Shown in pieces: positions 11,518 through 59,200 of a stretch of 64,000 nucleotides of DNA. The stretch comes from Xestospongia muta (Eukaryota > Porifera > Demospongiae > Haplosclerida > Petrosiidae), in contig OY848919.1 of NCBI GenBank assembly GCA_963693285.1, positions 10,659,461-10,723,460 on the forward strand, written 5' to 3'. Positions within the stretch are counted from its first letter, which is position 1; the number at the start of each line of letters is the position of its first letter. Position numbers and translations under genes: made by a program. The notes under the pieces are model-generated. The model searched no databases, was not told the origin of the DNA, and saw nothing but the letters and a program-made list of their open reading frames with translations.

Positions 11518-12760
11518 TTAGTAGTTACTATTCACAGCTAGTTTAACAAATGCGGTAACACATATAGAAGCAATGATGAGAACACCCACAATCCAAGACA
11601 ATATAGCAGCAATGTTGAAATGAAGGGCCATGCGGGCATATGAGCGAGCAGTATTAACATGACCTCGTTTATAGGCATCATGGGACTATTAAAAAGCAAA
11701 ATTCAATAAGATAATAACAAGTGTAGACACATTTTATATTATGCATTATAAAGCAACGTACCATAGAGGATAAGACGACGGCAGGAACTGTGCATATAAG
11801 ACTGAATGCTCCACATAGTATACACAGTAATGTGAGTGTAATAGACATAGTCAAGTAATGGTCAACAAAAGGACGAGATGTTGTAGTTGTAGCAGAAGGT
11901 TGCTCCTGGATTACAATTATATTGTCATAGGTATGTTGATTATCATCTATTGTGATGTAGTAAAGATCATTTTATTATGTTTATGGGATACCAATGATAT
12001 TTTGTGGTGCTGGATAATATCCACCTTCTCTCGGAGGATATAGAGATCCCTATAGATATTGTATTTGATATAATGACGACAATTATTAATACATTCTCAC
12101 ATGTAATGTAAACATATATATATACACACACAAATGCACATGTTTATATTTCATATTACTTACAGATGTTGTTAATGATGGATTAGCAATACCTGAGGAA
12201 AAAAGACAAAGGACTTCATTAACTATACATGCACTTTTGTTTGTGTCATTATAATTACGTATATACTATAATTGGTGTTCAATTTTAACAATGTTATGCA
12301 TGCATTTGTGTAAACAAACTATGCACTATTATCATGTTTGATTTAACAAAGTAATATATATGGCACGATTTAAACTGTTAATAATGATTTTTTCAAACAA
12401 ACAGACATATTTTCATTTGAAATACAATCATTTCATAGGACATCAGTAATCAAAACAAAATTATGTTTACTTTCAGTTTGGTACATAAAATCTGTATAAC
12501 CATATATATATTTGCTAAATTAACAAATCAGTTTGTATAGCGTAATTACAGAGCCTTCTATCTAAATTGTACCAAAACCATATTAACACTTCTATTGTTT
12601 ATATTATATATCTGCATTTATAGTGTAGGTAGTCCCACGAGCTGGACACAGTTACAGAGGTAGGTCTGTTTCGTGAGACTATATTTATAGTAGGGTCGAT
12701 TATAGCATATCTAACTATTGGATATTTTCTATTAAACATGAATAATTACTTACCCTCCAT
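11518..12760 (-). CDS. DSP-1: dispanin/CD225-domain small membrane protein, type I
   Basis: Five exons on the complement: 12754-12760, 12164-12192, 11992-12049, 11762-11946, 11518-11685; 447 nt, 148 aa, open throughout. The N-terminal third is Pro/Tyr/Gln-rich (GGYYPAPQ). Residues about 65-93 form the first hydrophobic segment after DHYLTM; the last exon starts SHDAYKRGH, continues ARMALHFN and gives a second hydrophobic segment about 117-140. The loop between the two segments matches the family signature (SRD..K..GD in IFITMs). Known dispanins have a cytosolic N terminus and sit in plasma or endosomal membranes; function here is unknown. In DSP-1 and DSP-2 the linker and first-TM exon are fused, unlike DSP-3 to 6. 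Start: ATGGAGG plus GTAAG, with CCACGCCC upstream. Confidence 0.85.
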
Positions 12761-12867
12761 TAATACTGCTGTCAGAATAATAAGATGCGAGGTTAGTCTT
12801 AAATTTCCTTTGGATCTGTAAACGGCCGATAGTACGTAATCTGTAAACGCTGCGATTTTGTCCACGG

Positions 12868-12880
12868 ACAGCCACGCCCC
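12868..12880 (-). promoter_or_regulatory. CCACGCCC box upstream of DSP-1
   Basis: AGCCACGCCCC on the + strand, about 110 bp upstream of the DSP-1 ATG. Same word and spacing as other copies; probably part of the shared promoter. Confidence 0.4.
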
Positions 12881-13204
12881 ATCCTTTCATCGGACCTGGC
12901 GTGAATATAGGATGTAATATGCTTAGTCATCCAATATCCAAACAATTCACTATTATTAATGGTATCTCATACAAACTCTATATATTTAAAAATTACAATC
13001 AAAATGTTGCTTCTTTTAATAAAATATGCTAACTTTAATTAATGTTTAATGACTAAATATTATATTAAAAACCAAATTCTTAACTAAAGTATAAATTTAT
13101 AAAAATTTGAATCAAACAGAATTAAACAGTCAAGTTATTGATAACACATGATGATACTTGCATAAAATAAAACAAAAATAATACATTCATAAATATATCT
13201 GTTG

Positions 13205-13252
<48 letters not shown>

Positions 13253-13274
13253 CAACACTTACTTTTCAATAATT

Positions 13275-13320
13275 TGAAGTGTTTTTGCTACCTTTATATT
13301 CAGTATATTCATTAATGCAT
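13275..13320 (+). pseudogene. Rhesus exon 4 fragment
   Basis: Short match to the Rhesus exon encoding [12 protein letters not shown], nearly identical with the debris at 10,480-10,520 and followed by the same non-coding flank. It lies just right of a long AT tract (13,207-13,250) and within the spacer between DSP-1 and DSP-2. Confidence 0.5.
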
Positions 13321-13570
13321 TGATGGAACAGGAAGACTATAAATATAATAGATATATAATAACTCTCAGTCTATCTTTTATAATACAAAATATTCTAAAC
13401 AATCATAATTTTGACTGTCCCACAAGTGCCAATCACTAAAAATTGGAAAGTGTAGGAAAAGTATACTAATAAATATACCAATACAAAAACAATAAAAACA
13501 ATGAACTGCTTTAATTAAACATACTTGGTATAACAACAAACGTTTTAGAAAAATATTGAAAAATAAAAAA

Positions 13571-14857
13571 TTAGTAGTTATTATCCTCAGCTTGTTTAAC
13601 AAATGTGGTAACATATATAGAAGCAATGATGAGAACACCCACAATCCAAGTCAATATAGCAGCAATGTTGAAATGAAGGGCCATGCGGCCATATGAGAGA
13701 GCAGCATTAACATCACCTCTTTCATAGGCATAGCGGGACTATGAAAAGCAAAATTCAATAAGATAACAAGTGTAGACACATGATACATTCTACATATAAA
13801 GCTGTGTACCTTAGAGGAATAGAAGAGGGCAGGAAGTGTACATATAAGACCGAACATTCCACATATCATACTAAGTCCTGTGAGTGCAGCAGACAATGTG
13901 AAGTAATGGTCACCAACAGCACGATATGTCATGGTTGTAGCAGTAGGTTGCACCTGGACTGCAGTTATATTGTTATAGGTATAATTATGTTGATTATCAT
14001 CTATTGTTTTTTAGTAAAAATCATTTTATTATTATGTTTATGGGGCATACTGTTGAAATTTTGTGGTGCAGGATAATATCCACCTGTTGAAGGAGGTAGA
14101 GATCCCTGTATAAATATCATATTCTATATAACTGTTAATACATTCTCATATGTAATGTAAACATATATATTATTTATACACACACAAACACATTTGTTTA
14201 TATTTCATATTACTTACAGATGTTGTTGATGATGGATTATCAATACCTGAGGAAAATGTCATTAACAAAAAATACATACACTTTTTGTTTGTGTCATTAT
14301 AATAAAAGAATTATGTATATACTATACTTGGTGTTATTCAATTTTAACAGTGCATTTGTATAAACAAACTATACACTGTAAAAACTGAATGATTGATTTA
14401 ACCATACAAATTATGGTTATACAGATTGTATATTATGATTCAAACTGATTCAAAGAAGCAGAAAGATATTTATTTGAAAAACAATCATTTTATAAGACAA
14501 TAGTAATCAAAACAGTATTATGTTTACTTTCAGTTTGCTATATACAATTTGTATAACCATTTATAGGTTAAATCAACCAATCAGTTAGTACAGTGCACTT
14601 ATAGAGTTCTTCTATCTAAATTGTACCCAAAGCATGTCAACACTTTCTTATATATATATAAGGCCTTTATATTGCATATTCTCGCTTATAGTGTAGATAC
14701 TCTCACGAGCCAGACAAAACCCCTATATGGTGAACGAATGACAGTCACAGAGGTAGTTGGGTCTAGCTCGCGAGACTATATTTATAGTGTGGGTCGATTA
14801 AAGCATTTCTAACTATTGGACATTTCTATATAACATGAATAATTACTTACCTTCCAT
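13571..14857 (-). CDS. DSP-2: dispanin/CD225-domain protein, type I
   Basis: Exons 14851-14857, 14218-14246, 14051-14105, 13810-14000 and 13571-13738 give 450 nt, 149 aa, with all junctions in frame. Architecture as DSP-1: GGYYPAPQ in the Pro-rich part, VGDHYFTLS before the first hydrophobic segment (about residues 65-94), then SRYAYERGDVNAA and the second hydrophobic segment ending TTFVKQAEDNNY. This copy restores the GD of the loop that DSP-1 has changed to GH. The close match to DSP-1, introns included, marks a recent tandem duplication. Confidence 0.85.
14697..14785. repeat. Inverted-repeat element in DSP first introns (DSP-2 copy)
   Basis: TCTCACGAGCCAGAC at the left is mirrored by GTCTAGCTCGCGAGA at the right, so the segment can fold into a hairpin. 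Related blocks occur near 78-150, 12,629-12,690, 18,045-18,130, 18,960-19,030, 22,735-22,810, 27,160-27,225 and 42,045-42,075, always within a few hundred bp of a first exon. It is either an element inherited by duplication or a conserved intronic or regulatory hairpin. Confidence 0.55.
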
Positions 14858-16356: not shown

Positions 16357-18208
16357 TTATCCCTCAAGGACAACAAATATAATAAGAAGGATGGCAAAGG
16401 CTACAACCCAAGTCACCATAGCACCAATGTTGAAACGAAGGGCAATGCGACCATAGGTGATAGCAGTTGCAGTATCACCTCTTTTATAAGCATCACGGGA
16501 CTATGATAAATCAAAATTCAATGACATAATACAAATGGAGGAACATATTTTATATGATTCTAAATGAACATACCAAAATGGAAAAGATGAGGGCAGGAAT
16601 TGTACAAATAAGACTATATGTCCCAAATAGTATACTCATTGTTGTCAGTGCAATAGACATTGTCAAGTAGTGATCACCAACAGCACGAGATATTGTGATT
16701 GTAGCGGTAGGTTGCGCCTGAATTGCAGCTGTGTTGCCCTTTGACGAAACAAGGAAACATTTAACTCTTTGTTGTGAGGATTATAGTTTATACCTGTTGT
16801 TGAGGATTATAAGCAAGAGCTAGCTGGTGATAATATGCACCATGTGGATTATCTATTGTGAAATTAATAAACATTATTTGTGACCTTATTTGGGAAAAGG
16901 GACTACTTCTATTCAAATATCTCAAAACATGATGCATGTGTTGTGTACACAATCATACATTTTTTCAATGAATGTTTACTAAAAAATTTTAATGTTTAAA
17001 AACACTTAGATAACTTGAATGCAAAATTTAGTTGGCATTCTATTTAAAAAATTGCTTAAGTTTATGCTAATGTCTTAATGGTTTGATAGTAGTGGCCAAT
17101 ATTGGAAATCAGTCTACATTTATTAGAATGTTTATGGACATACAATTGAAATGTTGTGGTGCAGGATAATATCCCACTGGTGTTAGTGGAGGTAGAGATC
17201 CCTATATAAATATTATATTTGATATAATGACACAACCTATTATTGCATCCTCACGTACATACAATGTACACATATATAATTTATGCAAACACACATGCAT
17301 ACATTTGTATTTAATATCACTTACAGAATTTGTTGACGGTGGATTAGAAATACCTGAGAAAAATGGCTTATTTAACAGTAACCGTATGCATCTATTGTTT
17401 GTGCCATTGTAATTATACAATACAATATTTGTGAGCTGATTTGGGAAAAAGGACCACTTCTGTTAAAATATCTCCAAAACATTCTGTTGTTACGTACACA
17501 ACCATATGTTTTCATTGAATGTTTACTAAGTTATATCTCAGTTTAAAAACAATACATAACTTGAAATGTAAAATTTAGTAAGCATTTTATGTTTAAAAAT
17601 GTTTACGTACAGTCAAGTATTTATCAAGGTTTAATAGAAGTGGTCCCTTTTTGCAAATCAAGTCACATTTAGTGAAATTTTGTTTTGACAGTGATATGCA
17701 TACATTTTTGTAAACAAATTATGTTTTGTACATGCACCTTTTTGGCTAATTGTAGTGTAGTACATTAGAAAAATAAGCTGTTTATCAAAACAATTCCTAG
17801 AAGTAAAAGTGAATACAATTTCTAGCTTTGTCACTAAAGGCGTAAACAAGGCAACAAGCAGGACGTTTAATTCCTGTAATACAACTAGCATTTTTATCAG
17901 TACTTCAGCATCAAAAGCTACTAAATTTAATAATCATATACTCAATAGTAAAACAAATTTATAGAATCTTTTAGCTAAATTATACTCAATGCATATACAT
18001 AGTTTCTTAAATAAAACCATAATATTTTATACTTGTGTTTATATCGTATTCTCACGAGGCAGACACAACCCCTATGGTTAAACAAAGGACAGTCTATCAT
18101 TCTATCTATCTATCATAGTGTTTAGGGATTGATATATATAGTGAATAGATTAAAGCATATCCAATTATATGAAAAATTTATACGTAATTTGAATTACTTA
18201 CCTTCCAT
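16357..18208 (-). CDS. DSP-3: dispanin/CD225-domain protein, type I
   Basis: Six exons: 18202-18208, 17325-17353, 17144-17201, 16794-16852, 16574-16738, 16357-16500; 462 nt, 153 aa, in frame. The Pro-rich N terminus contains PVGYYPAPQ, and the separate linker exon encodes NPHGAYYHQLALAY with a YHQL (YxxL-type) motif. VGDHYLTMS precedes the first hydrophobic segment; the last exon starts SRDAYKRGDTATAITYGRIALRFN, the best match here to the IFITM loop, and leads into the second hydrophobic segment, ending VVLEG. Introns 2 and 3 each hold a copy of the GTGACCTGATTTG MITE. It is the longest intact type I copy. Confidence 0.88.
16879..17118. mobile_element. MITE with TGTGACCTGATTTG termini, DSP-3 copy a
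   Basis: Left end TGTGACCTTATTTGGGAAAAGGGAC is mirrored by an inverted, diverged right end near 17,085-17,118. Related copies are at 17,430, 21,613, 22,240, 34,354 and 48,157. No coding capacity. Confidence 0.55.
17430..17667. mobile_element. MITE with TGTGACCTGATTTG termini, DSP-3 copy b
   Basis: TGTGAGCTGATTTGGGAAAA begins it, and AGTGGTCCCTTTTTGCAAATC followed by a TCACA end forms the inverted terminus. About 238 bp. It lies in the intron between exons 1 and 2. Confidence 0.65.
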
Positions 18209-21092: not shown

Positions 21093-22890
21093 TTAGTTAT
21101 AAATTATTTGGACAAAATATACAGTAAAAATGATGACAAAGGCTACAATCCAAGTCACCATAGCGCTAATGTTGAAATGAAGGGCAATGCGACCATAGGA
21201 GATAGCAGTTATAGTATCACCTCTTTTATATGCATCATGTGACTATGAAAAATGAAAATTCAATGACATAATGACAAGTGAAGACACACATTTATATGCA
21301 TTAGGAATAAGCATACCTTAATGGAAAAGATGAGGGCAGGAACTGTACAAATAAGACTGTATGTCCCAAATAGTATACTCAGTGTTGTGAGTGCAATAGA
21401 CATTGTCAAGTAATGATCACCAACAGCAGGAGATGTAACAGTAGGTTGCTGCTGAATTACAATTATGTTGCCCTTTGATAAAAATAAGAAAAATTTAGCT
21501 CTTTGTTGCCAGGGATTATAGTTTATACCTGTTGTTGAGGATAATAAGCAGGACCTAGCTGGTGATAATTTACACCATGTGGATTATCTATTGTAATTTA
21601 GTAAATATTATTTGTGACCTGATTTGCGAAAAGGAACTACTTCTATTCAAACATCTCAAAAATATGCTGTTGTTGTGTACACAACATACATTCTTCAATG
21701 GATGTTTACTAAAATAACTTGAATGCAAAATTTAATAGGTATTCTATTAACAAATTGCTTACGGACACGCAAGTGTTTTAATTTTTTGATAGAATGGCCC
21801 TTATTGCAAATCAGGCTACATTTTATTGTAATGTTTGTGGTGTTGGATAATACCCACCTGTTGTTAGAGGAGGTAGAGATCCCTATATAAATATTATATT
21901 TGATATAATGATATAATGGATCCTCATATACACAAACATACATACAATGCACACATATATTATTAATACACATACAAAATGTACATGTTTGTATTTAATA
22001 TTACTTACAGAATTTGTTGACAATGGATTAGCAGTACCTGTAAAAAAAGAAAAAAACTCAGTTATTTAACGGTAACTGTATACACTTTTGTTTGTGTCAT
22101 TATAATTATGTAAATACTATATTTGGTGACTGTGATATGCATGCATTTGTATAAACAATTTATGTTTTCTACATGTGCCTCTTTGTAAGGTATAATCTTA
22201 CTTATCACATTTGCAAAATAAACTGGTTGTTAGTATAATTGTGATCTGATTTGCAATAAAGGAACAACTTCTGTCAAAACATTTATGACCTAATTTGTAA
22301 AAAGGGACCACTTTTAAAACATCCCCCAAAAACTTTTGTATATATATAGTTGCTATATATACACAGTTGTTCACGGCAGCTGTATCTATACGAAACTGTT
22401 TTTGAAGTGTTTTAACAGTGGTCCCTTTTCATAAATCAGGTCACAAAAGTTTGACAGAAGTGGTTGTTTCTTACAAATTAGATCATAATTCATAGGAAAA
22501 TATAATGATTACAATTTCTAGCTTTATCAATAAAGGTGTAAACAAGAAAACAAGCAGGAAGTTTAATTCCTGTAATACAACCACACTTTTTACCAGTACA
22601 TCAGCATCAAATGTTAACAATTATATACTCAACTGTTAAACAAAATTCACAGAATCTTCTATCTAAATTATACCAAAGCATATTGCTCCTTTCTTATATA
22701 AAGCCATTATATTTCATATTGTGTTTATATTGTAGTCTCACGAGCCAGACAAAACCCCTATGGTTAAACAAAAGACAGTCTATCGTTCAATCATTGGGTT
22801 TAGGTCTGGATATATATAATGTGAGTTAATTGAAGCATAGCAACTATTTACAAATTTTAAATGTAATATAAATAATTACTTACCTTCCAT
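21093..22890 (-). CDS. DSP-4: dispanin/CD225-domain protein, type I, damaged third exon
   Basis: Exons 22884-22890, 22009-22037, about 21874-21898, 21529-21587, 21317-21472, 21093-21242. Linker has NYHQLGPAYYPQQQ (YHQL), then VGDHYLTMS and the first hydrophobic segment, then SHDAYKRGDTITAISYGRIALHFN and the second. The third exon has lost about 20 bp at its usual donor, so normal reading hits TAA after GGYYPTPQTLQ. A good internal donor (ACAACAG then GTGGGT) shortens the exon to 25 nt and keeps phase 1, giving 141 aa. It is coding only if that donor is used; otherwise a pseudogene. First intron carries MITE copies. Confidence 0.65.
21613..21820. mobile_element. MITE with TGTGACCTGATTTG termini, DSP-4 copy a
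   Basis: Begins TGTGACCTGATTTGCGAAAAGG and ends with an inverted AATGGCCCTTATTGCAAATC stretch and GGCTACA. About 208 bp, in the intron between third and fourth exons, adjoining the damage to the third-exon donor. Confidence 0.65.
22240..22497. mobile_element. Nested pair of TGTGACCTGATTTG MITEs, DSP-4 copy b
   Basis: Outer ends: TTGTGATCTGATTTGCAATAAAGG and AAATTAGATCATA. Inside is a second inverted pair (ATGACCTAATTTGTAAAAAG at 22,283 and CTTTTCATAAATCAGGTCAC at about 22,426-22,445) around a TATA-rich loop. This looks like one copy inserted in another. Confidence 0.65.
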
Positions 22891-26028: not shown

Positions 26029-27300
26029 TTATGTAAGTACAGTATAAAAATAAGCAAAAACAAGGATAACAAAAACTACAACCCAAGTCACCATAGCACC
26101 AATGTTGAAACGAAGGGCAATGCGACCATAGGAGATAGCAGTTTTAGCATCATGTCTTTTATAGGCATTATGGGACTATGAAAAATAAAAATTTAATGAC
26201 ATAAAACAAGTGAAGACACACATTTTATATGCATTATAAATGAGCATACTATAATGGAAAAAATGAGGGCAGGAAATGTACAAACAAGACTGTATGTCCC
26301 AAACAGTATACTCAGCATTGTGAGAGCAATAGACATTGTCAAGTAGTGATCACCAACAGCACGAGATTTTATGATTGTAATAGTAGGCTGCTCCTGAATT
26401 GCAGTTATGTTGCCCTTTAATTAAAATAAGAAAAATTTAGCTCTTTGTTGCCAAGAATTATAGTTTATACCTGTTGTTGAGGATTATAAGAAGGACCTAG
26501 CTGGTCATAATTTACACCATGTGGATTATCTATTGTAATTTAGTAAAAATTACTTTTTATTGTAAAGTTCATACTTTTGAAATGTTGTGTTGCTGATGTT
26601 AGAGGAGGTAAAGGTCCCTATATCAATATTATATTTGATATAACAACAAGTCACATACACACACATACATACAATGTATGTACTTTAATATTATTTATCC
26701 ACACATGCACAAATGTATATAATTATAAACAGTATTACTTACAGATTTTGTTGACAATACATTAGCAGTACCTGAGAAAATATGGCTTATTTAACAGTAA
26801 GTGTATACATTTTGTTTGTGTTATTATAATTATACAAATACTATATTTAATGAAATTCCATTGACAGTGGTATGCATGTATTTGTATAAACAAATTGTTT
26901 TGAGCCTCTTTATTATAGTTTAGTAACATTATATACAATTTTCTAGCTTCCTCACTAAAGGTGTAAATAAGGAAACAAGCAAAAAGTTTAATTCCTGTAA
27001 TACAACTAGGCCTTTTTTACCAGTACATCTGTATCAAATGTTACTAAAGTTAAATAATCATATACTCAATAGTAAAAGAAAATCTATAGAATCTTCTATC
27101 TAAATTATATCAAAGCATATTGCTTCTTTTCCGTTATATTTTATCTTGTGTTTATATTGTAGTCTCATGAGCCAGACACAACCACAAGGACGGTCTATCA
27201 TTCAATCATAGGGTTTAGATCTAGATTTATAGCGTGGGTTGATTAAATCATAACTATATGAAAATTTTATATGTAACATGAGTAATTACTTACCTTCCAT
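26029..27300 (-). CDS. DSP-5: dispanin/CD225-domain protein, type I
   Basis: Exons 27294-27300, 26743-26771, 26575-26617, 26471-26529, 26250-26414, 26029-26175; 450 nt, 149 aa, open. The third exon is 15 nt shorter than in DSP-1/3 and lacks the GGYYP block, yet keeps phase 1. Linker has NYDQLGPSYNPQQQ (YDQL). VGDHYLTMS leads to the first hydrophobic segment; the last exon begins SHNAYKRHDAKTAISYGRIALRFN, so the loop GD is HD. It ends FYTVLT. The donor after the first-TM exon is ATA then GTATGC. DSP-11 re-uses a copy of this gene's first three exons. Confidence 0.82.
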
Positions 27301-32639: not shown

Positions 32640-33317
32640 TTACTTGTAACAGTAATAACTGTATGTGTGGCCAGAAGAGTTACTTCCATAGCAAACATTG
32701 CTTCTGCTAGAAAAAGCAGTAAGAGCAATAACAATAATGATACCGACAATAAAAAGCACCCAGGCAACTAAACCACCAAAGTTAAGAGCAAGGGCAATAC
32801 GACCATTACTACGAGCAGCTTCATTGTCACCTCGTGCATCAGCATCTCGAGCCTATATGAGACCAAAAAAACACTTCATAAATACTCCAAATTACATTTA
32901 GCAATTATGTAGATGTAAAGCATTTGTAAGTGATACTAATAGGCATTTTTAATTAGGCTTTCACAAGTTCTATATTAATATAGCATAACATGAGTACTGA
33001 GCAGTTTCCATTAGAAAAAGAATGAACAGATTAAAAGTACAAATTACATTTCCTTTGTTAAATATAGCATACATTATTAATTATGATGTTACCATTGTAG
33101 AAAATATGATGGCTGGAATAGTACAAAGGAGAGAGTGCCATGTTCCAAAGAAGACACATAAGATTGTGAGCACAATACCCAATGTTAGATAATTGTCACT
33201 GACTGGATGAAAGGGAGTTGCGATCACAAAAGGCTGAGTCTGCACTACATCTACACTGTTATTTGGCTAAAAAATAGTGTTCAAGTGATATAACATGCTC
33301 TTAAGAAGCCATACACT

Positions 33318-33388
<71 letters not shown>

Positions 33389-44300: not shown

Positions 44301-44845
44301 CTATAGTCAATTAACGATCACGTGCAGAGTACAATCGAAAACGTTGTGGGTGGCAACAGCGATTTTTATATATACTAATCTCTCATAATTATGACTTCAA
44401 AATACATGGCGTTCACGTTGAATTTAATGATAGTTTAGTATACAATAGAACTATTAGTATTTACATATCAAATTGTTTTAGGAGTTTCATGACTGGCTTT
44501 TATTCTGTTACTTGTAATAGTAATAACTATGTATAGCCAGAAAAGTAACTTGCATACCGAACATTGCTTCTGCTAAAAGAAGCAGCAACAGCAATACCAA
44601 TAATGAAACCAACAATAAAAAGCACCCAGGCAACTAAACCACAATTGTTAAGACGAAGGGCAATAAGACCATGAGTATGAGCAGCTTCATTGTCACCTCG
44701 TGCATCAGCATCTCGAGCCTATATGAGACAAAAAACACTTCATAGATACTCCAAAATTACATTTAACAATTATGTAGCTGTAAAGTATTTATAACTCATA
44801 ATAATAGACATTTTTAATTAGGCTTTCACAAGTTCTATATAAATA

Positions 44846-46334
44846 CAGTGGCCCTCAAAAGAGTTCGGCCACTCACGTGTTTCTTATTAAAAATAGTACT
44901 TAAGCTTATTTACTTAGACAATGCGCAGTACTTAACAGAACATCTTACAGCTGCTCAGTTACGTGTATCAACAGTTCTATACACAAAAGCAATTAGAGCA
45001 GCAGTTATGAACTCGTTTAAAGTGCTTGACTTGAAGACAAGTTTCTGAAAACAATTAGTAAATAGCTGACCACAACATGCCCAGAGGAAAACCCACCAGT
45101 GAGTTCTAGAGAGGTCAAATTATAGCTTCGCACCAGCTTAAACTGCCATCTAGAGCTATATCAAAATAATTAAAAATACTAAAGAGTACAATAAATGACA
45201 TCATGAAAAAAATACAATATAAATAAGTCAGTAACTGATGAACTACGACCTGGACATCCCAAATTGTCTTCAAAACGAGAAGATAGAAGTCTCGTGTTAA
45301 AGTCAATCAGAGATTGTAAACTAACAGCACCTCTTCTGAAAAATATATGGAAGGAGGAAGATAATGTCATGGCTTCCTCAAGTACAGTGAAGAGAAGACT
45401 GATAGATGCTGGATTAAATAGTAGAATATCAAGAAGGAAACCATTGTTACTGCCAAGACACAAACAACAACGTCTCCAATGGGCAAAAGATCACAGGGAC
45501 TGGACAGAGGATATGTGGAAGAAAGTTGTATGGTCTGACGATTCCAAGTTTAATCTCTTCCATAGTGATGGTCGAACGTACATAAGACGTAGACTATCAG
45601 TAGAATTTAACGAGGACTGTATACAGGGCACAGAAAAGCATGGTGGCGGTAGTGTAGTGGGGATGCATCTGTGGCAATGAAAAGGGTATGTTAGTACAAG
45701 TCAAAGGCAAGATGGATAGATTTCAGTATTTAGAAATACTAGAAAATGCAATGATTCCATCAGCCTGGTCAATAGGTTGTTTGGACTACATCTTCATGCC
45801 TTTGCCACAAGGCTCATCTAATAACAGATTGGATGGACGAAAACGGTGTTAATTGTACTACATGGCCAGCACAATCTCCAGACTTAAACCCAATAGAAAA
45901 CTTATGGGACTATTTAGAGAGGAAACTGGAGGTATTGCCAACAACAACTCTCTCTCAATTATGGGACACCCTAAGTGATCTTTAGGAGAATATACCAACA
46001 GAAATAATAGAAAACCTGGTCTCGTCGATGCCACGAAGAATTGAGGCTGTTATTAAAGCAAGGGGTGGGCACACAAAGTACTAGATATCTTAACTTACAT
46101 AAGATATTATTTTATTTGTTTTTGCCATAAAACACGGTAATAAACATCATCCCTTGTTTAAACACAGACGTTACTTACGCTAACTTTTCTCCAACTTCTA
46201 ATGTAATTGTAACAGACTCCATACCACCTCCTGTTAAGCCTTCTCTTGAAAGATAGCTCAGAAACACTACACGTGTAACTGTGGTTAATAATGCAACTTC
46301 CGCGTGGGTGGCCGAACTCTTTTGAACGCCACGG
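44846..46334 (+). mobile_element. Degenerate Tc1/mariner transposon
   Basis: Inverted termini CAGTGGCCCTCAAAAGAGTT and, at the right, AACTCTTTTGAACGCCACGG, with TA on both sides. The + strand encodes a broken Tc1-type transposase: HTH-like start near 45,077 (MPRGKPT, then a stop), an open stretch at 45,264-45,680 with TVKRRLIDAGLNSR and VVWSDDSKFNLF (first catalytic Asp), then a frameshift, CHKAHLITDWMDENGVN, and WPAQSPDLNPIENLWDYLE with the last acidic residue. The segment that should hold the middle Asp (normally DNDP before the CHKAHL stretch) reads TTSSCL. Several stops make it inactive. Removing it restores the DSP-8-like intron. Confidence 0.9.
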
Positions 46335-46589
46335 TATAGCATAACATGAGTACTGAGCAGTTTCCATTAGAGAAAGAATGAACAGATTTAAAAGTACAAA
46401 TTATATTTACTTTGTTAAATATGACATACATTATTAATTATGATATTACCATTGTAGAAAAGATGATGGCTGGAATAGTACAAAGGAGAGTGCCATGTTC
46501 CACAGAAGACACATAAGATTGTGAGCACAATACCCAATGTTAAATAATGGATAATGGTGATATAACATGCTCTTAAGAAGCCATACACT

Positions 46590-46662
<73 letters not shown>

Positions 46663-46675
46663 ATATATATATATA
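46590..46675. repeat. (AT)n tract in DSP-13
   Basis: Long AT/TA dinucleotide run with a TATGTATG interruption, homologous in position to the tract in DSP-8. Confidence 0.9.
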
Positions 46676-47539
46676 TAAACATTTCAATTATGCATCACCG
46701 TCAAGTGTACTTTTCATAATACAATTTTATATGTTACAGATGCGTATGATGTACTTCATTAAGGTTTACCTGCTGTTGGGCCTGCGGAAGTGGAGCAGGT
46801 TGCCCAAAATATGGTGGTGGGACATCATTAGCTAAAATGATTACAGTAAAGGATAATATATATGACTTCTATTAATGACAATGACATAAAATGTTGAAAA
46901 TGTTAATCAAATATAACTTACTACTGAGTTTTTTCAGTCCTGGATGATAACCACTACCAGTTGGATTAGGATGTTTCTAAATGATAATTATTAATTGTGA
47001 AAGTGGATGCATGTACATGTACGTTACAGATAATTTATTACCAGTACCAGTACAGTACTTACAGGTTGAATTGATGGTGGATAAGCAGCACCTAAGAACA
47101 AAACAACATAAATAAACCTTTAAGTACATTTAGTTTTATTGACTTATATCCATAAGAAAAAAATGCAATGGTTTAATAACTATATGTACTGTATATTGCC
47201 ATTTTCTGTCAACTACATGTAGTATACTTGCAACCTTCTATCAAACTTAGTGGAGCACATGTACTAGAATTACTTTAATGTTTTATTAAGGATCTAGTAA
47301 CAATCTTGTATGACTATTGCCATATTTAAATTGATTTATGAATAGGGAGAACTTGATATCATTTCTTGTAAATGTTATTAATATTAAGTGTCAGCAAAGT
47401 AGAATGATATTTTTTGTGACCTCAATTATTGAAAAAATTACTACAAATATATAGTACTATATTAATTATTTAACAATTACATCATGTTATAATATATTAC
47501 ATTGTGTCTAGACTAATTGTCTTACATTGCATTGACTAT

Positions 47540-48150
47540 AATTATAGTAAATGGAGTCAAATTAACCATTACAAAATAGCATTTGTCATTTCAACCATTG
47601 TCTTTTTTTTTACTTTACTTTACCTTAATTTTGTCAATATGACATAAACCCAATATTGAGTTGCCACAAAGACAAAACTGGTCTAACTGTATAAAGTCAA
47701 CTAGGAGCCAAAAGGTCCTCTTTGTAGTTTATGTCTAATAAATGAAGCCATGAGCAAGAGATAGATACTATTTCAACTTAACTAATTAGATTGGGAACAG
47801 TTGTAATAGAATCTGCTTTTATCTTCAATTGAAGCCATGATTCAATTACTATAGCAATGTAAATGTAAACGAAATGTGGTTGTAGTTGCAAATTGGCTTT
47901 ATACATATTGAGATACACTATAGTTGGCCTTGTAGCAACTTAGAATGGGTTTACATCATATTGATGAAACTATGGTAACGAATACCTCAGTTAGAATGAC
48001 AAAATGCTTTTTTCAGTGTATTATGAATGATATAGTATATATATAATACACACACAGACGAATCCCTTTATTTAAAACACATGTACAAACAATATATACA
48101 CATTCTCTGATTCTAATAACCATTTATGAGCTTGATCACAAAAACATTTA
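47540..48150. other. Unassigned stretch in DSP-13 first intron
   Basis: About 500 bp (47,580-48,040) absent from the matching DSP-8 intron. No ORF or clear terminal repeat is seen; a T-rich run lies at 47,608. It is probably an old insertion. Confidence 0.35.
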
Positions 48151-48156
48151 TTTATG

Positions 48157-48369
48157 TGTGACCTGATAAGGGACCACTTCTGTGAAAACATTTTGACCTA
48201 GCTGATTTGTGAAAAGGGACCACTGTTAAAACACCTTTTGTGTACATACAGTTACCATGAATGCATATATAGCAATTGTATGTATACAAAACTGTTTTTG
48301 AGGTGTTTTAACTAGGGTCACTCTCAACAAATTGGCCAGAAGTAGTTTCTTATTGCAAACATGTTCACA
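48157..48369. mobile_element. MITE with TGTGACCTGAT termini in DSP-13
   Basis: Twin of the element at 34,354-34,560: TGTGACCTGATAAGGGACC, an internal GCTGATTTGTGAAAAGGGAC and an inverted right half. Confidence 0.6.
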
Positions 48370-48415
48370 TATGTTTATTTATATTATATATATTATACAT
48401 ACATACATACATGTA

Positions 48416-48460
<45 letters not shown>

Positions 48461-49295
48461 CTAGTAACTAAAAATTCAATGCCATTTTTACACTATACAA
48501 CAATTTAGTCTACACATGTATAGTGCACAGTTAAAAATAAAGAATAGAATTATACACTTGTTACCTTCCATTGTAGTCGTTGATAGCTTTTAACGAGAAG
48601 TGATCAACACAGCTTGAATTTATCCCGACAAGATCCCCCCTGTACTGTGAATGTGTATAGGCGGTGATATTATATATAGGCGGTGATATTTTATAAACAA
48701 AATGAATCACGTGTGCTAGTCTATATAGTATTTATGCGAGAGGGCCGGAACATAACGTGCTGTTTATTCACAAAAATATGACTAACTCACGTGAACGTTT
48801 ATATTATCCTTCTCTGATCTCATTGATCCTATCTTCCTATCACAAAGTTCAGTACAAGACTATGATTGTTCTAATCATTGCCAGGATCTTCGTAAACGAT
48901 TTGGGACACTGAGTCAGAGAGTGTTCTGGAGAGTAGAAATACTATACCTTTTTCTCCAGAGTCTATCTGTCACAGTACAGGAAGGAAATACAATAATGCT
49001 GCTGGATACCATTAATGAAACCACTAATACCAAAACACCTTTTTGTATAGGTTATTGTTTTAGGTTTACTTATTATTTTTACCTTTACTTTTATCTATTA
49101 TATCATGTTTTCAATATATTTACTCACTTATTTTAATCACTATTCATTTTATTTATATTATATTTACATATTTGATTTGATTTGCAATAGCTTCAATCAG
49201 TACTTATTAACTTTGGTTATTTTATTTATTCTTTATTGTAATATAATAATTATATTCAGCACAATATAAGTCTATTATATTTGTACTGTAGTTAC

Positions 49296-49410
49296 CAAAA
49301 TAAAAATGACAATTGATAGAATAGCACAGAAGAGAGAAACCCATGTTCCCAAGGGTACACAAATGACTTAAGTATAATATCCAATGTGAAGTAGTGATTT
49401 CCAACAGGAT
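49296..49410 (-). pseudogene. Degenerate first-TM dispanin exon
   Basis: The complement starts VGNHYFTLDIILKSFV and then needs a frame change to continue GNMGFSLLCYS. It is a sister of the fragment at 35.4 kb within the duplicated 34.9-35.6 / 48.7-49.4 kb segment. Confidence 0.6.
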
Positions 49411-49575: not shown

Positions 49576-50582
49576 CTATGCATAAAAAATGATAATAATC
49601 AAGACAGGCAAAATGATAGGCCAAGACACTACAGCACCAATATTTAAACCAAGGGCAATACGACCGTGATTTTTAGCAGTTGCATTATCACCTCTTGCAT
49701 CAGCTTCACGTGCCTACAAGATAAAATTAAAGGAGTATATGCTAAATAATTAAAGACAATTAGAAATATAGGCTTCAGTGGTGCAGTTTGATTTAAAAAG
49801 TTTCAATACTTATTATTCATTACTTAATAATTATGTTTTATAATTTTAATTTCCTGCTTCCTTATAATAAGCATTTTTAATTTGACTTTCACAAGTTCTA
49901 TGACAATATATATATAACAAAAATGCTAAACAGTTTCCATTACAGAAGAAGTACTTTAAAAGTATAAAGTATATTTGCTTTGTTTAATATATATAAAATA
50001 CATTGTTAATTATATTGTTACCAGTATAGAAAAGATGATGGCTGGAATAGTACAAAGGAGAGACTGCCATGTTCCAAAGATAATACAGACAACTATGAGC
50101 ATAACACCCAATGTCAGATAATGATCTTGAATTGGACGAAAAGTAGTTGCAATCACAGAAGGCTGACTCTGCACTACAACTACATTGGAACTTGACTAAA
50201 AAAACAACACCCAAATGATATTTCATGAATTTTAAATTTAAGCCGTATAATTAAATATATACATATGAGCATTTAAATTATAAGAGTCAAATTAAATTTG
50301 TGTAATGCAATGCACAGCTAATGTTATATGCTGCAGATGCATATAACATATTTTGTTAAAGTTATAGCTTCTCACATGCTGTTGGGCTTGTAGAGCAGGA
50401 GCAGGATGGTCAAAATATGGTGATGGTGAAACATTACCTACATTGAGTATAATGAAGTATAATACATGTGATTTCTTTTAATGAAAATGATATAGAATGT
50501 TTAAAGTATAAACCATATATAACTTACTACTGAACTTTTGTGGTCTTGGATAGTAGCCACTACCAGTTGTGTGAGGATACCC
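49576..50582 (-). pseudogene. DSP-14: type II dispanin lacking its first two exons
   Basis: Four clean exons: 50528-50582 (YPHTTGSGYYPRPQKF), 50376-50437 (SNVSPSPYFDHPAP), 50022-50195 (IQDHYLTLG and first hydrophobic segment), 49576-49713 (AREADARGDNATAKNHGRIALGLN and second segment). All splice sites and phases fit. Upstream, sequence matching the DSP-8/13 first intron reaches the expected first exon near 50,770, but the ATGGAAG is replaced (complement reads CAGTACGTAATAAG) and the second exon is absent. No start codon is evident. It may be used with a start or 5' exon I cannot see. The last exon resembles DSP-15, the others DSP-11/17, suggesting recombination. Confidence 0.6.
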
Positions 50583-51015
50583 CTGATGACAGTTACATAT
50601 GTTTGCTTATATTATATACACATACATACATACATACATACATGTATACATATACATATATATATATAATATAGCTAGTAACTATAATTCAATGCCATTT
50701 TTTTCGGTAAACATCAATTTAGAATATATAGTGCACAGTTAAAAATAAAGAAAAGAATTATACACTTATTACGTACTGTTACTTTTACACAAATGACTTA
50801 AGTATAATACCCAATGTGAAGTAGTGAAGTCCAACAAGACCCAGACACATATAGACTCACACACATGCTGGGTACCAATATTTAATCAGCTCATTGATAA
50901 TAAGTTAGATTTTAAATCAGTAAAAGATATTAAACAGGAAGTAGCATGTAAAATAAATTATTTAAAAATATTCTTAAGTGTGGTTGTACAAAAGTGTTCT
51001 TTGTTTTAAAAAATA

Positions 51016-52601
51016 CTATACATAAATAATAACAATAATCACGACTGCCAAAATGATAGGCCAAGACCCTATAGCACTAATGTTTAAACCAAGGGCAATA
51101 CGACCATGATTTGTAGCAGTTGCATCATCACCTCTTGCATCAGCATTACGTGCCTACAAGATAAATTAATTGTGAAGATAAAAGGGGGATATGTTAAATA
51201 AAATTAAGGAAAAAAGACAATTAGAGATATAGGCTTTAGTGGTGCAGTTTGATTTGAAACAGCTCCAATACTTATTATTCATTACTTCATAATTATGTTT
51301 TGTAATTTTATTTATTTTATTTGTTATGATGAAACCATTGTACATTGTACAATATAAGTCCATAATACATGTACTGAAATTACCATAGTAGAAAAGATGA
51401 TTGCTGGAATAGTACAGAGGAGAGCAAACCATGTTCCAAAGAGTAAACAAATACCTGTGAGTACCAAACCCAATGTCAAATAGTGATCTCCAACATAACG
51501 TATAGGAGTATTTATAACAGTGGCCCGAGGTGGTTGCTGCACCACAATTATTCTGACAGGTTGCTATATATACACAAATAAGGAAAAAATAAAAATAGCT
51601 TGTAATTATCAAAAATTCTAGATGTCATAGGGTTAAAAATATGTTAATTTGCCAGTTACTTAGATGTTATGTTAAACAATTGTTTTTAACCTGCTGTTGA
51701 GGATAAGGACCTCGAGTATAGGTACTTTCATTGTAATATGGAGGAGGTGGGGTATCAGCTACAATGAGAACATAATTCTTCATTAATAATTATTATAGAT
51801 ACATTAGTTTTTCATTCATTTAAATATAATATGACATACTTTTAAATTGTTGTGGCGCTGGATAATACCTTTCACTATTTATAGGAGGACAACCCTGTAC
51901 GTGTAGACATATATGTACAATGAAGTTTATAATTTATTATACCATAAAATAATCAATAACTAAAAGGACCTTATTATAATAAAGTAACTTGTACTTACAG
52001 ATTGAGTTGATGGTGGATGACCAACACCTTAAGAAAACATAAATTTAACATAAACGTCTGTAGCTACAAATATGTACAATTATAATAATATGATAATAAT
52101 TATTGAGAATGATATTCACAGGATATTGTCAAACACTTTCTATGCCAGTATTCATAGTTATTTCCTTCATTATTAAAGGAAATGTTATGTATGAATATTG
52201 TTAGTGTCTTAAGTTCATAGACAATATGTTAAACTATTTGTACATTTAACAAGTACTATTAAGTTGCAATTATAATACATTGAGTATAATAAATTTTAAT
52301 TTGGTTTACAGTGAGAGTTTAAGTTGATTTGTCATAATGATAAAGTCAAAAATGCAATTATATATAGATATTGTAATTATTAGAAAGAAAATAATTAGAA
52401 CTATTATTTTATTTAACAAAGCAGTATACCTGCAGAAAGCATTTCTTGTGCCTACACACTTTTGTTTATTAAGCTACTTATATCAACCATTGAAAAGTTA
52501 CGTACTTATATATATGACCAGATTACCACAAAACAAAAATATATTAGCTCACGGACAAAAAGAACTGTTATAAAACATAAATCTATAAGTTTACCTTCCA
52601 T
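51016..52601 (-). CDS. DSP-15: dispanin/CD225-domain protein, type II
   Basis: Exons 52595-52601, 51999-52027, 51840-51894, 51691-51758, 51384-51563, 51016-51153; 477 nt, 158 aa, fully open. The N-terminal part reads VGHPPSTQS, SERYYPAPQQF and the linker ADTPPPPYYNESTYTRGPYPQQQ, which holds PPPY. VGDHYLTLG leads into the first hydrophobic segment (ending IIFSTM); the last exon has ARNADARGDDATATNHGRIALGLN and a hydrophobic run to IIYV with no Tyr/Cys tail. It is the parent type of DSP-9. First-exon donor is GTAAAC. No CCACGCCC box is evident upstream, unlike type I. Confidence 0.87.
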
Positions 52602-53224: not shown

Positions 53225-53409
53225 TTGTAATATTAACTGTATGCTAGCATGTATAGCCATCATGATCATCGTATCTCTAGCAAAGAGATGCCAATAAGAC
53301 TGATAAGAAACAACACCCCAAAGATTAAACTAACAATGTTAAGACCAAGGGCAATATGACCAAGAGTGCTAGCAGCTTTGGTGTGCCCTCATTTATCAGC
53401 ATCTTTTGC
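53225..53409 (-). pseudogene. DSP-16: solitary decayed last exon
   Basis: After an intact AG acceptor the complement reads AKDADK, a stop, then AASTLGHIALGLN and a hydrophobic run, ending LLEIR. Near copy of the fragment at 37.7 kb; no partner exons. Confidence 0.7.
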
Positions 53410-55200: not shown

Positions 55201-55216
55201 TACTTTATTTGTAACG

Positions 55217-56962
55217 TTAGCAGTAATAACTGTATGTATACCCATTATAGTTTTCTTCGTAACAAAGACTCTCACTGGTTGAAGAAACAGCAACAGCAAC
55301 AGCAATAATGACACCAACAATAACAAGCACGCAAGTAACTAAACCACCAATGTTAAGACCTAAGGCAATACGACCATGAGTGAGAGCAGCTTCAGTGTCA
55401 CCTCGTGCATCAGCATCTCGAGCCTATTTGAAACCAAAAAGTTAAACATTTTATAAATACTTCAATTACGTTAATTACTTTTAGCAATAATGTAGATGTT
55501 TAAACTAGTAATACTTTTCATTACATGACATAATTTTCCCCTTCATTATAATAAACATTTTAATTTGCATTTCTATAACAATTATATATAACAAAAATAC
55601 TAAAAAACTTTCTATTACAGAAGGAGAAATTATAAGTATAAAGTACATTGGTTTTGCTAAATATAACATTGTTAATCATTACCATTAGAGAAAAGATGAT
55701 TGCTGGAATAGTACAAAAGAGCACAAACCATGTTCCAAAGAGAGCACAGAAAACTGTGAGCATAATACCCAATGTCAGATAATGATCTCGAATTGGCCGA
55801 AAGGTAGATGTAATCACAGAGGGTTGACTCTGCACTACAACTACATTGGAACTTGACTAAAAAATCAATACCCAAGTGATATTTCATGCCTTTAAGTATT
55901 AAGCCATGCACTTAAATATACACATTTAAATTATGTACAAGCGTCAGATTTTATTTGTGTAATACTAAGCATAGCTATTGTTATATGCTACAGCGCATAT
56001 ACTGCATTTTGTTAAAGTTAATTTTCTCACTTGCTGTTGGGCCTGTGGAACAGGAACAGAATAGCCAATATATGGTGGTGGTGAATCATTACCTACATTG
56101 AGTATAATGAAGTAAAATATATATAATTTTTTTAAACAAGAATAATATAGAATGTTTCAAGTATAACCTATATATAACTTACTATTGAACGTTTGTGGTC
56201 CTGGATAATAACCACTATAAGGTGTGTGAGGATGTCCCTGATGATAGCAATTAATTAGTAAAATGGATACATAGACAGTTACATTACAGATATTTTTATT
56301 ACCACCAATATATACTTACAGGTTGAGTTGATGGATATCCAAAACCTAAGAACAAAACATCATAAGTAAACAATGTTAACAGTTACTAAGTATATTTTAA
56401 ATTGATTTTTAGTCAATAAGGAGAAAGTGTAATATTTTAATGGCTCACTGTAAAAATTGACTGGTTAATTTAACCAGTATATTGTGATAGAGAGTGTATG
56501 CACATGTAGTAAACTTATTGTGATGCAAGAAAGTAAACAATACTGTTTTGATTACTAATGCACTAATGTTTATTGTATTAGTAATCAAATCAGTATTATG
56601 TTTACTTTTTTGCATCCTGTATTAAATATCTAGTAAAAATCTTATTAAATATTGCTATACATGAATTTATTTATTAATAGGGAAAGTTTGCTAACTTCAT
56701 TTGTAGATATTAAGTGTCAGCAAAGTAAACAGATAAATTTTGTGGTTTTAATTACTAAAATATCTTATAGCATGTTAGGTTATGTCTAGACTATTAGTGT
56801 TACATAAGTATGTAGAGAATTTATTCAGAGAAATAAATGAAATGCTCAAACTGCAGTAATAGACTAGTGTATAGCATTTGTTATCATAAAGCCACAAACC
56901 ATAAAGTAATGTGACACTATTTGAATTTGACCATGACACACATTTACACACACACACACACA

Positions 56963-56998
<36 letters not shown>

Positions 56999-57326
56999 TG
57001 TATGTATGTATGTATGTATGTATGTATGTATGTATGTATGTATGTATATATGTATATATATGCATGCAAATAAACTGTAAAGTGTGGTTAAGTAAATTCT
57101 AACAGATGTAGCAGTCATATATGTAGTGTTAAGGAAAATAACATCACTACATCCTAAAATTTGTTAATAACTTCCTCACAATCTTTATAGAATATATTGT
57201 AACAGTGTATTAGTTAGTGACTGAAACCAATACAATTTTTATGGTATATATCAACTAAACATACATATACTTGTATATTGTACATTAAAGCATAGAGAAA
57301 ACAATCATACATTTGTCACCTTCCAT
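55217..57326 (-). CDS. DSP-17: dispanin/CD225-domain protein, type II, with Tyr/Cys tail
   Basis: Exons 57320-57326, 56320-56345, 56183-56237, 56031-56092, 55683-55856, 55217-55423; 531 nt, 176 aa, open. N-terminal modules: FGYPSTQP, YSGYYPGPQTF and the linker SNDSPPPYIGYSVPVPQAQQQ with PPPY. IRDHYLTLG starts the first hydrophobic region (to IIFSLM); then ARDADARGDTEAALTHGRIALGLN and a second hydrophobic segment, then a tail with SESLCYEE and TYSYYC. The first-exon donor is GTGACA. The second exon is 3 nt shorter than in other copies but in frame. It is the cleanest type II copy of the full six-exon form. Confidence 0.87.
56971..57060. repeat. (TATG)n microsatellite
   Basis: About 19 TGTA/TATG tetranucleotides in the first intron of DSP-17, preceded by a CA run. 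Open frames on both strands here are artefacts of the repeat. Confidence 0.95.
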
Positions 57327-57329
57327 TAC

Positions 57330-58480
57330 AGCCGTTGAGAGTATTTACTTTAGAGCGTACACCACGCGTAACGGGTTGAGTCTATCTCGACAAGGATTCT
57401 CCTCTGTGAATGCGAATAGGTGGTGATATTTTATAAGTAAAATGGCACACCTGTGCTATTTTGTATTCACGTGAGAAGCCGGAGTGTGGCGTGATATCTG
57501 TTGATATAAATAGTTATGTATAAGTTATCTCACGGGAAAGTGTATATTATCTCGTATATGGCGAGGCGTTCTTAAGAATATGTTCAGTTTAGAGGAGGAG
57601 ATTAATATTTTAGGATAAAATTGAAAAAGGCTGATAGGTGGATCCAGAGAACCGTACTGTGTAATGTATGATTTCTTTCTTTATGTTTTAACATGTGAGT
57701 GTAAATTATAAACAGAAAGTACACATATACAAGTATGAACAATACACTTATAAAACAAGATAAATCTCAAATTGTGAAAAAGAAACGTCTTTGAAAGTCA
57801 AAAGTTTCTCTTTTGATTATTTCTTGCCATTACCCCAGAAGACGTCATGGCATAGCAAAAGTACAGTGGTTATATTTATCATAATTATAACTTATGGCAA
57901 CATTTATATTACCACAAGCTCATGTATTCCAGACTTCATTAATATAAAATCTTATATCTTGCATCTTACAAGACTCAGGAACTAGCATACATATAAAACA
58001 AACTTCTTATAATAAAACTGTAATGTATGATATTAATTTTGCTCTGTGGTTTTCCTGTATGTTAATTTACTTTTAGTGTGCTGTATAAATATTGATTTTT
58101 TTGTATTTATGATCAGTTAGTTAGTTAGTGTGTGCAACTGTGAAAGTTATCTCGAGTGATAAAACTTAAGATATAACAAAAAATTCTTATAATATTTCCC
58201 TAAATCTCATTCAACGTGATATATGACTTAGTTATAGGATAGTTTTAATATTGAAATATATTATTTTTAAATAGCAATATTTGAAAAGCATAAAGTTTAA
58301 TTATCTATATGCTTGACAGTTAATTAGTTGACTCTGGTTAATATTTATTAGAAATTTTTCAGTTCCACTTAAAACAAAATACCATTTTATTACAAATATC
58401 ATATTATTTGGCATCTGTTATATTAATGTATCCTTAAGATACACAAGTATGAATATTCTGCAAATTATCATATGACCAGT
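57330..58480. other. Upstream flank of DSP-17
   Basis: Presumed promoter, including a block near 57,410-57,560 that resembles the regions upstream of DSP-8 and DSP-13 (TGAATG then ATAGG then GGTGATATTTTATAA). No exon recognised. Confidence 0.4.
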
Positions 58481-58640
58481 TTCCAACCTTCAATAAAAAG
58501 TCAACCACTTCACAATCTTCAATCATATGTTGACCATTTTCCAACCCTCAATTATATCTTGACCATTTTCCAACCTTCAATGATATCTTGACCAGTTTCT
58601 AACCCTCAATGATACATTGACTGGTTTCTGATCCTATAAC
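58480..58640. repeat. Tandem repeat of about 32 bp
   Basis: Four to five units built on TTGACCATTTTCCAACC followed by CTCAATGATATC-type sequence. One- or two-unit relatives occur near 30,430, 37,470, 38,880, 43,250 and 54,290, always in the downstream spacer of type II copies. Confidence 0.75.
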
Positions 58641-58809
58641 TTAAAATAATATCAATACTTAATTAAAGCATACAATTATTATGAAACATATCAAAATGTG
58701 TATAATGATTGTAATTTATCACATTAACTGGGTGAATAAAATTAATTTGTACTGTATGATATATAATAAAACCACACACATCTACATATCAAATTGTTCT
58801 GTTATTAGT

Positions 58810-59200
58810 TAAATTGTAACAGTATGTATAGCCATCATCATAGCCATATCTTTTGTCATATCTATGGCAAACACTGTCACTGGTTGCAGAAGTAACTATA
58901 GCAATAGCATTAATGATACCAACAACAACAAAGATCCAGGTATCTAAATCACCAATGTTAGTATCTTTAGCCTATTTGAAACAAAAATAATGAAGACTTT
59001 ATTTTTTTAGAGTTAAAACATATGCATTGTACTGAGAACTGAAGTTTTATGGACCTGGATAATAACCATTACTACTTGTGTGAGGATACCTTGATGACAG
59101 CAATTAATTATTAAGTTGGATACATAGACAATTACATTACAGATAGCTTTATTACAACTACATATACTTACAAGTTGAGTTGATGGTGGATAAGCACCAA
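58810..59200 (-). pseudogene. DSP-18: collapsed type II dispanin copy
   Basis: A last exon with its centre deleted (58,810-58,971: AKDTNIGDLDTWIFVVVGII and a tail with GYTYCYN), a third exon at 59,037-59,089 (SSNGYYPGP, then a stop) and a shortened second exon near 59,171-59,195. Linker and first-TM exons are absent. It marks the right end of the array. Confidence 0.7.

Follow-up and report, generated by a model that had tools for sequence, protein, structure and literature searches.

A tandem array of CD225 (dispanin) genes of a sponge-type sub-family in Xestospongia muta, very probably evolving by birth and death

A 64,000-nucleotide stretch of the sponge Xestospongia muta (the window; contig OY848919.1, C3 below, of assembly GCA_963693285.1, forward-strand positions 10,659,461 to 10,723,460) carries on its minus strand a series of related genes for small proteins with a CD225 domain (PF04505), the hallmark of the dispanins. 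We regard this series as, very probably, a tandem array that evolves by birth and death and belongs to a sponge-type sub-family of the CD225 membrane proteins. As far as can be read from the DNA, the array is real, large and still changing, and it represents a sponge-type variant of a known family, with CD225 membership, common descent of the copies, duplication of their promoters, a chimeric gene (U10), dead copies and a transposon insertion. Between positions 11,518 and 57,326 we distinguished, besides fragments, 15 units (U1-U15; Table 1), each of which pairs an exon for a first hydrophobic segment (E5) with an exon for a second one (E6). Together with six damaged fragments, these units make the content of the range 11,518-59,200 consistent with the about 18 copies and fragments listed in a first-pass annotation made from the sequence. 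E6-to-E6 matches among the units reach tblastn E values down to 9e-25, well past chance. Ten of the 15 units (U1-U6, U8, U10, U14, and U15) are open from start to stop and five (U7, U9, U11, U12, and U13) are not; this mixture of open, damaged and dead copies agrees with the birth-and-death cluster that had been proposed.

The tandem arrangement thus stood, while the array turned out to be larger than first described. A protein search of the whole genome placed it, among the matches listed, on C3:10,630,981-10,765,083 (~134 kb), past both edges of the window. The C3 array comprises, among these matches, 33 E5-type places, all of them on the minus strand and 14 of them in the window. Genome-wide, ~103 E5-type places on six contigs were among the matches listed, a rough figure, in which dead copies are counted and some of the matches are weak (E up to 0.05). 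Further CD225 arrays are present on contig C1 (0.36-0.40, 1.75-1.78, and 1.94-2.00 Mb) and on contig C10 (4.51-4.54, 4.64-4.69, 5.11, 5.33-5.37, and 6.37-6.43 Mb). The array at C10:6.37 Mb (L021), with at least five tandem genes and the top-scoring CD225 exons of the genome search, shares domain, tandem order and genome with the window copies, but carries a CCFWPIG segment that is absent from them. In the right flank of the window (L043, L044), a tandem duplication of ~8.7 kb contains the near-identical group-B genes Rb and Re and their neighbors.

An intact group-B gene, exemplified by U15, consists of six exons, and U3-U6 of group A follow the same plan (group assignments are given in Table 1). 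E1 comprises only seven bases, ATGGAAG, in phase 1; as the first-pass annotation had noticed, this exon is common to the copies, with 12 instances directly before GT on the minus strand of the window and the variant ATGGAGG, likewise before GT, in U1. E2 has 9-10 codons and E3 ~18 codons with phase 1 at its end, E4 encodes PPPY in some copies, and E6, which begins with SRDAYKRGD, ARDADARGD or a variant, holds the CD225 loop in addition to the second hydrophobic segment. These Pro/Tyr-rich short exons, E5 and E6 were all recovered where they had been annotated. In U1 and U2, which hence have five exons, and in the flank copies Lc, Ld, and Le, E4 and E5 are fused into one exon; U8 has four exons, with E1 followed directly by E4 in compatible phases, and U4 and U6 are open only with an earlier donor site 25 nt into E3. 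Every intron of the ten open models starts with GT and ends with AG, and the phases match. U10 had been called an open chimera, and it is indeed open from start to stop, with or without its two optional group-A exons; its make-up reads as a promoter swap that put a group-A promoter and E1 ahead of a group-B body. The Amphimedon queenslandica proteins described below contain the same pieces in the same order as the spliced models and thereby lend independent support to the splicing. A PPxY motif is found in three of the ten open window proteins (U8, U14, and U15). Tyr/Cys-rich tails, for which we hand-picked 12 examples from group B, other clusters and Amphimedon, measure 19-32 residues with 22-47% Tyr and 1-2 Cys; a Tyr-rich tail of this type is absent in group A and in U9, U13, and U14.

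The first-pass annotation had named a missing profile match of the joined last exons as the outcome that would speak against its CD225 assignment; all ten open models scored above the Pfam cut-off of 27.1 bits (30.9-41.7 bits), and this outcome hence did not arise. The damaged units U7, U9, and U13 also exceed the cut-off at the domain level, in a set outside of which U11 and U12 stand and in which the U9 entry bridges the frameshift and is uninformative on its frame. Alignments show two hydrophobic stretches with a short loop between them. In a search of 5.8 billion proteins, the named matches below an E value of 1e-20 came from the sponges Amphimedon queenslandica and Ephydatia muelleri, in keeping with the early-branching animal that had been suspected as the source of the DNA. 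The A. queenslandica CD225 proteins LOC100639982, LOC109581060, LOC109581061, and LOC105312676 share the domain with the window copies and have a long first hydrophobic segment that contains CTIPAI; several of them also have the GYxPxPQxF piece, PPPY, a Tyr/Cys-rich tail and a loop of the form ARDA(D/E). Identity to U15 is 43-49% across 68-76% of its length for the first three and 60% across 37% for LOC105312676, which carries a Cys pair. In all ten open window copies, a long first segment ends in CT(I/V/L/F)PA and is followed by a loop of the type A/S-R/H-D/N-A (SRYA in U2). The same segment and loop type occur in the Amphimedon proteins P0001, P0002, P0004, P0005, and P0008, and the segment alone in P0027 of Ephydatia. 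Since P0001, P0002, and P0004 are assigned to a longest contig of the same size (359,445), their genes may be clustered in Amphimedon as well.

Phylogenetic analysis supports the common descent of the array. In a midpoint-rooted tree of 47 domain rows, from which U12, Re, Rd, Rg, other copies and vertebrate rows were left out, 19 C3 rows group together (90/83). The C3 rows join with five Amphimedon rows (99/98) and stand apart, with the exception of row L033, from the C1 and C10 arrays that were entered. The Amphimedon rows lie outside the copies of the array, which indicates that these copies multiplied after the split. A long branch leads to group A, which forms a single clade (100/99); the flank copy La groups with it (89/63) and not with group B. 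Several long branches meet elsewhere in the tree, so that its deeper joins are unsafe.

We estimated omega, the ratio of non-synonymous (dN) to synonymous (dS) change, for E5+E6 with a codon model using F3x4 frequencies, run with our own code, which we validated on simulated data (12 replicates for each of three omegas); this model superseded pairwise Nei-Gojobori values. Nine pooled copies of group A gave an omega of 0.97 (0.70-1.40), six copies of group B including La 0.48 (0.40-0.60), seven copies of a C1 array 0.34 (0.25-0.50), and five copies of a C10 array 0.36 (0.20-0.65). The contrast between group A and the C1 array persists for close copies (omega of C1 close copies 0.16). Among other close copies, the values were 0.70 for U3-U6/Lc/Ld and 0.65 for four copies of group B, and within group A they were 1.93 for Le/U1/U2 (not different from 1) and 0.18 for Lc/Ld. 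Exons have diverged less than introns in three of four group-A pairs and in each of three group-B pairs, and constraint is therefore present; Jukes-Cantor distances in U3/U4, U5/U6, and U3/U6, for instance, are 0.10-0.14 for coding sequence vs. 0.14-0.34 for introns. In the pair U1/U2, dN (0.22) exceeds both dS (0.11) and intron divergence (0.12-0.14), but not significantly so (likelihood-ratio test [LRT] statistic 2.74). Over a stretch of 104 kb, all nine group-A E5+E6 pairs are free of stop codons, a result reached in 30 of 2000 runs of a neutral simulation (95 codons, substitutions only, with truncated fragments such as that at 759-824 left out).

Site tests do not establish positive selection in group A. 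With a trimmed alignment of 95 codons from nine copies, the comparison of models M7 and M8 yielded an LRT statistic of 4.78 (P 0.09); P was 0.04 for E5 taken by itself, 0.63 for E6 by itself, and 0.63 after removal of one strong site. We discarded a first test on 104 codons (M7/M8 LRT 29), most of whose sites fell in the badly aligned C-terminal tail, and did not count a window-only test of six copies (P 0.001), which reflects essentially that one strong site.

The promoter blocks were duplicated along with the genes and fall into at least three classes. A GGGCGTGGCT box is common to all ten promoters of the group-A type (Lc, Ld, Le, U1-U6, and U10), CACGTGA is present in the promoters of U8, U12, Rb, Re, U7, and U14 and missing from that of U15, and U7 and U14 share one more promoter type. 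These boxes may correspond to KLF/Sp or E-box sites. The window provides 13 promoters (U1-U8, U10, U12, U14, U15, and Le), with U9, U11, and U13, which are devoid of E1, left out, and all motif counts are raw, without a shuffle control. To our knowledge, no interferon is known in sponges.

Each gene would encode a small protein whose Pro/Tyr-rich N-terminus would lie in the cytosol and whose two hydrophobic segments would flank the short CD225 loop; in most members of group B, a short tail rich in Tyr and Cys would follow on the opposite side of the membrane. The products are probably endomembrane proteins. The PPxY motif of some copies may dock WW-domain ubiquitin ligases and thus route the protein via endosomes, and the proteins may assemble in the membrane and alter traffic or fusion, as is thought for other CD225 proteins. 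A role at the surface or the endosome facing microbes, viruses or particles would fit best to such a large and quickly changing set, a suggestion that we put forward tentatively and with well under an even chance. It is possible, but rather unlikely in our estimation, that the sponge CD225 sub-family, characterized by the long first segment and often by the Tyr/Cys-rich far-side tail and accounting for most of the ~100 loci here, serves as a set of diversifying membrane effectors against microbes or in self/non-self contact, independent of the vertebrate IFITM cluster and with group A among its fastest-changing branches. An antiviral function is a reasonable and possible hypothesis with mixed evidence. 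Several points weigh against this functional picture. The joining of the exons is read from sequence and homology, and seven of the ten open window proteins, including all six of group A, have no PPxY motif. The omegas of the sub-sets differ, so that groups A and B contrast less among close copies than when pooled, and an omega near 1 can also be read as relaxed constraint. An AlphaFold2 model of Amphimedon P0001 (built from 7 rows) was poor (mean predicted local distance difference test score 57.8) and was discarded; compared with the folds in the PDB, it had no match at E <= 0.001. Finally, the step to immunity is drawn solely from turnover and omega.

We consider it unlikely that these genes are the sponge equivalent of the antiviral IFITM genes of vertebrates, induced by infection and blocking the fusion of viral with host membranes via an amphipathic helix and palmitoylated cysteines. 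With IFITM1-3 (Dispanin A) the window copies share the CD225 domain, tandem birth-and-death clusters, which together with positive selection have been described for IFITM1-3, and in U8, U14, and U15 a PPxY motif of the type that docks NEDD4 in IFITM2/3 (available part of PMC13194588). Their profile reaches a fish IFITM2-like protein (E 2.8e-12) and, almost equally, a fish SynDIG1-like protein (E 1.3e-11). The key driver of IFITM activity is the amphipathic helix (residues 59-68 of IFITM3), and palmitoylation of C71/C72/C105 is crucial for it (same part of PMC13194588). However, none of the ten open window proteins has an adjacent Cys pair in the first segment, which reads HYLTLGIMLTVFCALFGTWFVLFCTIPAIIFS in U15 vs. 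DYLWYSIFTMLCCLPLGIAALIYS in the aligned fish IFITM2-like protein and is 7-8 residues longer than in IFITM. The sponge-type relatives are not uniformly without such a pair, as it is found in P0005, P0006, and P0020. For 11-mers hand-picked from the alignment, the hydrophobic moment at the place of the IFITM helix is 0.03-0.14 in seven of seven window copies tested, with no amphipathic signature, vs. 0.31-0.33 in three canonical sequences (the IFITM2-like and the SynDIG1-like protein of fish and one canonical copy from this genome). Amphipathic 11-mers with higher moments (0.63-0.70 in U14 and U15, 0.57 in Amphimedon P0001) are located immediately upstream of the first segment, and others in the loop, but the upstream stretches contain Pro and have a mean hydrophobicity near zero. 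Most of group B differs from IFITM1-3 by its Tyr-rich tail as well. An exact interferon-stimulated response element (ISRE) pattern was found within 400 nt in none of the 13 window promoters; four of them (U1, U7, U14, and U15) nevertheless contain the short pattern AANNGAAA, and two of six flank promoters (La and one unassigned) contain the exact ISRE pattern. The first-pass annotation had likened the loop specifically to that of IFITM proteins, a reading that found no support: TRDANRMGD of the fish IFITM2-like and AREANHAGD of the fish SynDIG1-like protein occupy the same columns, the SRD/ARD..GD loop is hence general to CD225 proteins, and the features to which IFITM3 activity is ascribed are absent at the aligned positions. 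Canonical CC..P.GIIAL copies sit at C10:6.37 Mb and, going by their CCFWPIG segment, would be the better candidates if any copies are IFITM counterparts.

A serious contender, whose chance we put somewhat short of even, is an array of trafficking or receptor-accessory dispanins of the PRRT/SynDIG type (Dispanin B/C), in which copy number drifts and the faster copies are under relaxed constraint. PRRT1, the sole and best CD225 match among solved structures, albeit a weak one (E 0.018), and SynDIG1-like proteins resemble the window copies in their Pro-rich N-terminus and CD225 domain, and the SynDIG1-like score about equals that of IFITM2-like. The group-A omega, which is indistinguishable from 1, and the weak site tests are consistent with relaxed constraint, and the excess of intron over coding divergence in U3/U4, U5/U6, and U3/U6 suggests that low dS, more than high dN, may raise omega in these pairs. 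Yet nine open group-A pairs out of nine are improbable under plain neutrality (0.015), constraint is clear in two further arrays of the genome, and the elevated dN of U1/U2, though not significant, points the same way. The fish SynDIG1-like protein differs in that it carries the canonical CC..P.GI segment and lacks a Tyr-rich tail. With five of 15 units broken and several fragments at hand, one could also suppose that most copies are dead and that the open frames are chance survivors or artefacts of the gene models. We judge this very improbable, given that ten units remain open across four to six exons with canonical splice sites, that independently annotated Amphimedon homologs share the layout, and that the promoter blocks are conserved.

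Fourteen dispanin genes are present in human (available part of PMC3282796), vs. ~103 first-hydrophobic-exon places, dead and weak ones included, among the matches listed here for this IFITM-containing family. Dispanin expansions are mentioned for lophotrochozoans (available part of PMC5620054), symbiotic Hydra up-regulates a CD225 gene that carries the annotation proline-rich transmembrane protein 1 (available part of PMC6019070), and Dispanin C has been followed back to ctenophores, the sponge O. carmela possibly having one member (available part of PMC7653359). Neither "sponge" nor "Amphimedon" occurs in the main text of the dispanin classification of 2012, and our search of a literature consisting mostly of journals open without subscription, in the parts accessible, found no account of a sponge CD225 array. 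The array makes it testable whether rapid CD225 turnover is linked to defense outside the vertebrates, without the IFITM helix.

Table 1. CD225 units, fragments and an inserted transposase frame in the window
Feature	Position	Strand	Description
Exon 1 of Le	223..229	-	Group A; remaining exons left of the window
E6 fragment	759..824	-	Group A; outside the range of the first-pass annotation, on its left
U1	11518..12760	-	Group A, open, 148 aa; exons 12760-12754, 12192-12164, 12049-11992, fused E4/E5 11946-11762, E6 11685-11518; CD225 36.9 bits
U2	13571..14857	-	Group A, open, 149 aa; fused E4/E5 14000-13810; CD225 41.7 bits
U3	16357..18208	-	Group A, open, 153 aa, six exons; loop SRDAYKRGD; CD225 38 bits
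U4	21093..22890	-	Group A, open, 141 aa with earlier exon-3 donor (21882-21858); CD225 40.2 bits
U5	26029..27300	-	Group A, open, 149 aa; CD225 33.5 bits
U6	28442..29808	-	Group A, open, 138 aa with earlier exon-3 donor (29018-28994); CD225 39.8 bits
U7	30756..32291	-	Group B, damaged: E2 out of phase, E3 not found, E4-E6 present; in-frame insertion of five residues in E6; E5+E6 CD225 37.6 bits
U8	32640..34749	-	Group B, open, 151 aa, without E2/E3; PPPY in exon 4, Tyr-rich tail; CD225 39 bits
E5 fragment	35506..35553	-	
U9	36033..36578	-	Group B; 5' exons not found; 1-nt insertion near 3' end of E5; near-copy of U14 (93.6% over 817 columns)
Dead E6 fragment	37752..37893	-	With remnant of Tyr-rich tail
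U10	39117..42342	-	Open chimera, 184 aa in short form; promoter type A; optional group-A exons 41659-41631, 41513-41471; CD225 38.7 bits
U11	43624..44302	-	Group B, only E5+E6; sister of U7; E2-E4 not found
U12	44527..48571	-	Group B, damaged: E5 frameshift (46549-46450); last intron widened by insertion
Tc3-type transposase open reading frame (PF01498)	45207..45680	+	In last intron of U12; 58.9 bits, cut-off 31.5
E5 fragment	49296..49405	-	Two frames, with stop
U13	49576..50582	-	Group B, E3-E6 open, E1/E2 not recognizable; E5+E6 CD225 30 bits
E5 fragment	50800..50835	-	12 codons
U14	51016..52601	-	Group B, open, 158 aa, six exons; PPPPYY in exon 4; without Tyr-rich tail; CD225 30.9 bits
Dead E6 fragment	53275..53409	-	In-frame stop
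U15	55217..57326	-	Group B, open, 176 aa, six exons; PPPY, Tyr-rich C-terminal tail; CD225 39 bits
Dead unit	58816..59192	-	E2 (59192), E3 with stop (59064), E6 remnant (58959-58816)

Within the CD225 array, to the left of U1, lies a gene for an Rh-type ammonium transporter (PF00909; 6492-8443, plus strand) with a 90% identical protein match; its open reading frames at 6492-7139 and 8024-8443 score 76.9 bits and 20.6 bits, respectively, the latter under the cut-off of 23.2. To the right of the last window copy, 59313-60889 and 62407-64000 form a 1.6-kb tandem duplication (90.7% identical, ~3.1 kb apart), in two open reading frames of which no Pfam domain was found. An Rfam search of the window gave no match at the gathering score. 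A cluster of cathepsin-like (PF00112) exons is located at C11:4.506-4.521 Mb (part of L040); when a silicatein signature was sought in a C1-protease cluster, the single active-site match proved to keep its Cys. An inverted repeat pair (7137-7473 and 40584-40923; ~345 columns, 80.6% identical) has one arm beside the ammonium-transporter frame and the other inside U10, and palindromic inverted repeats at 22234-22494 and 56522-56616 are perhaps small transposable elements.

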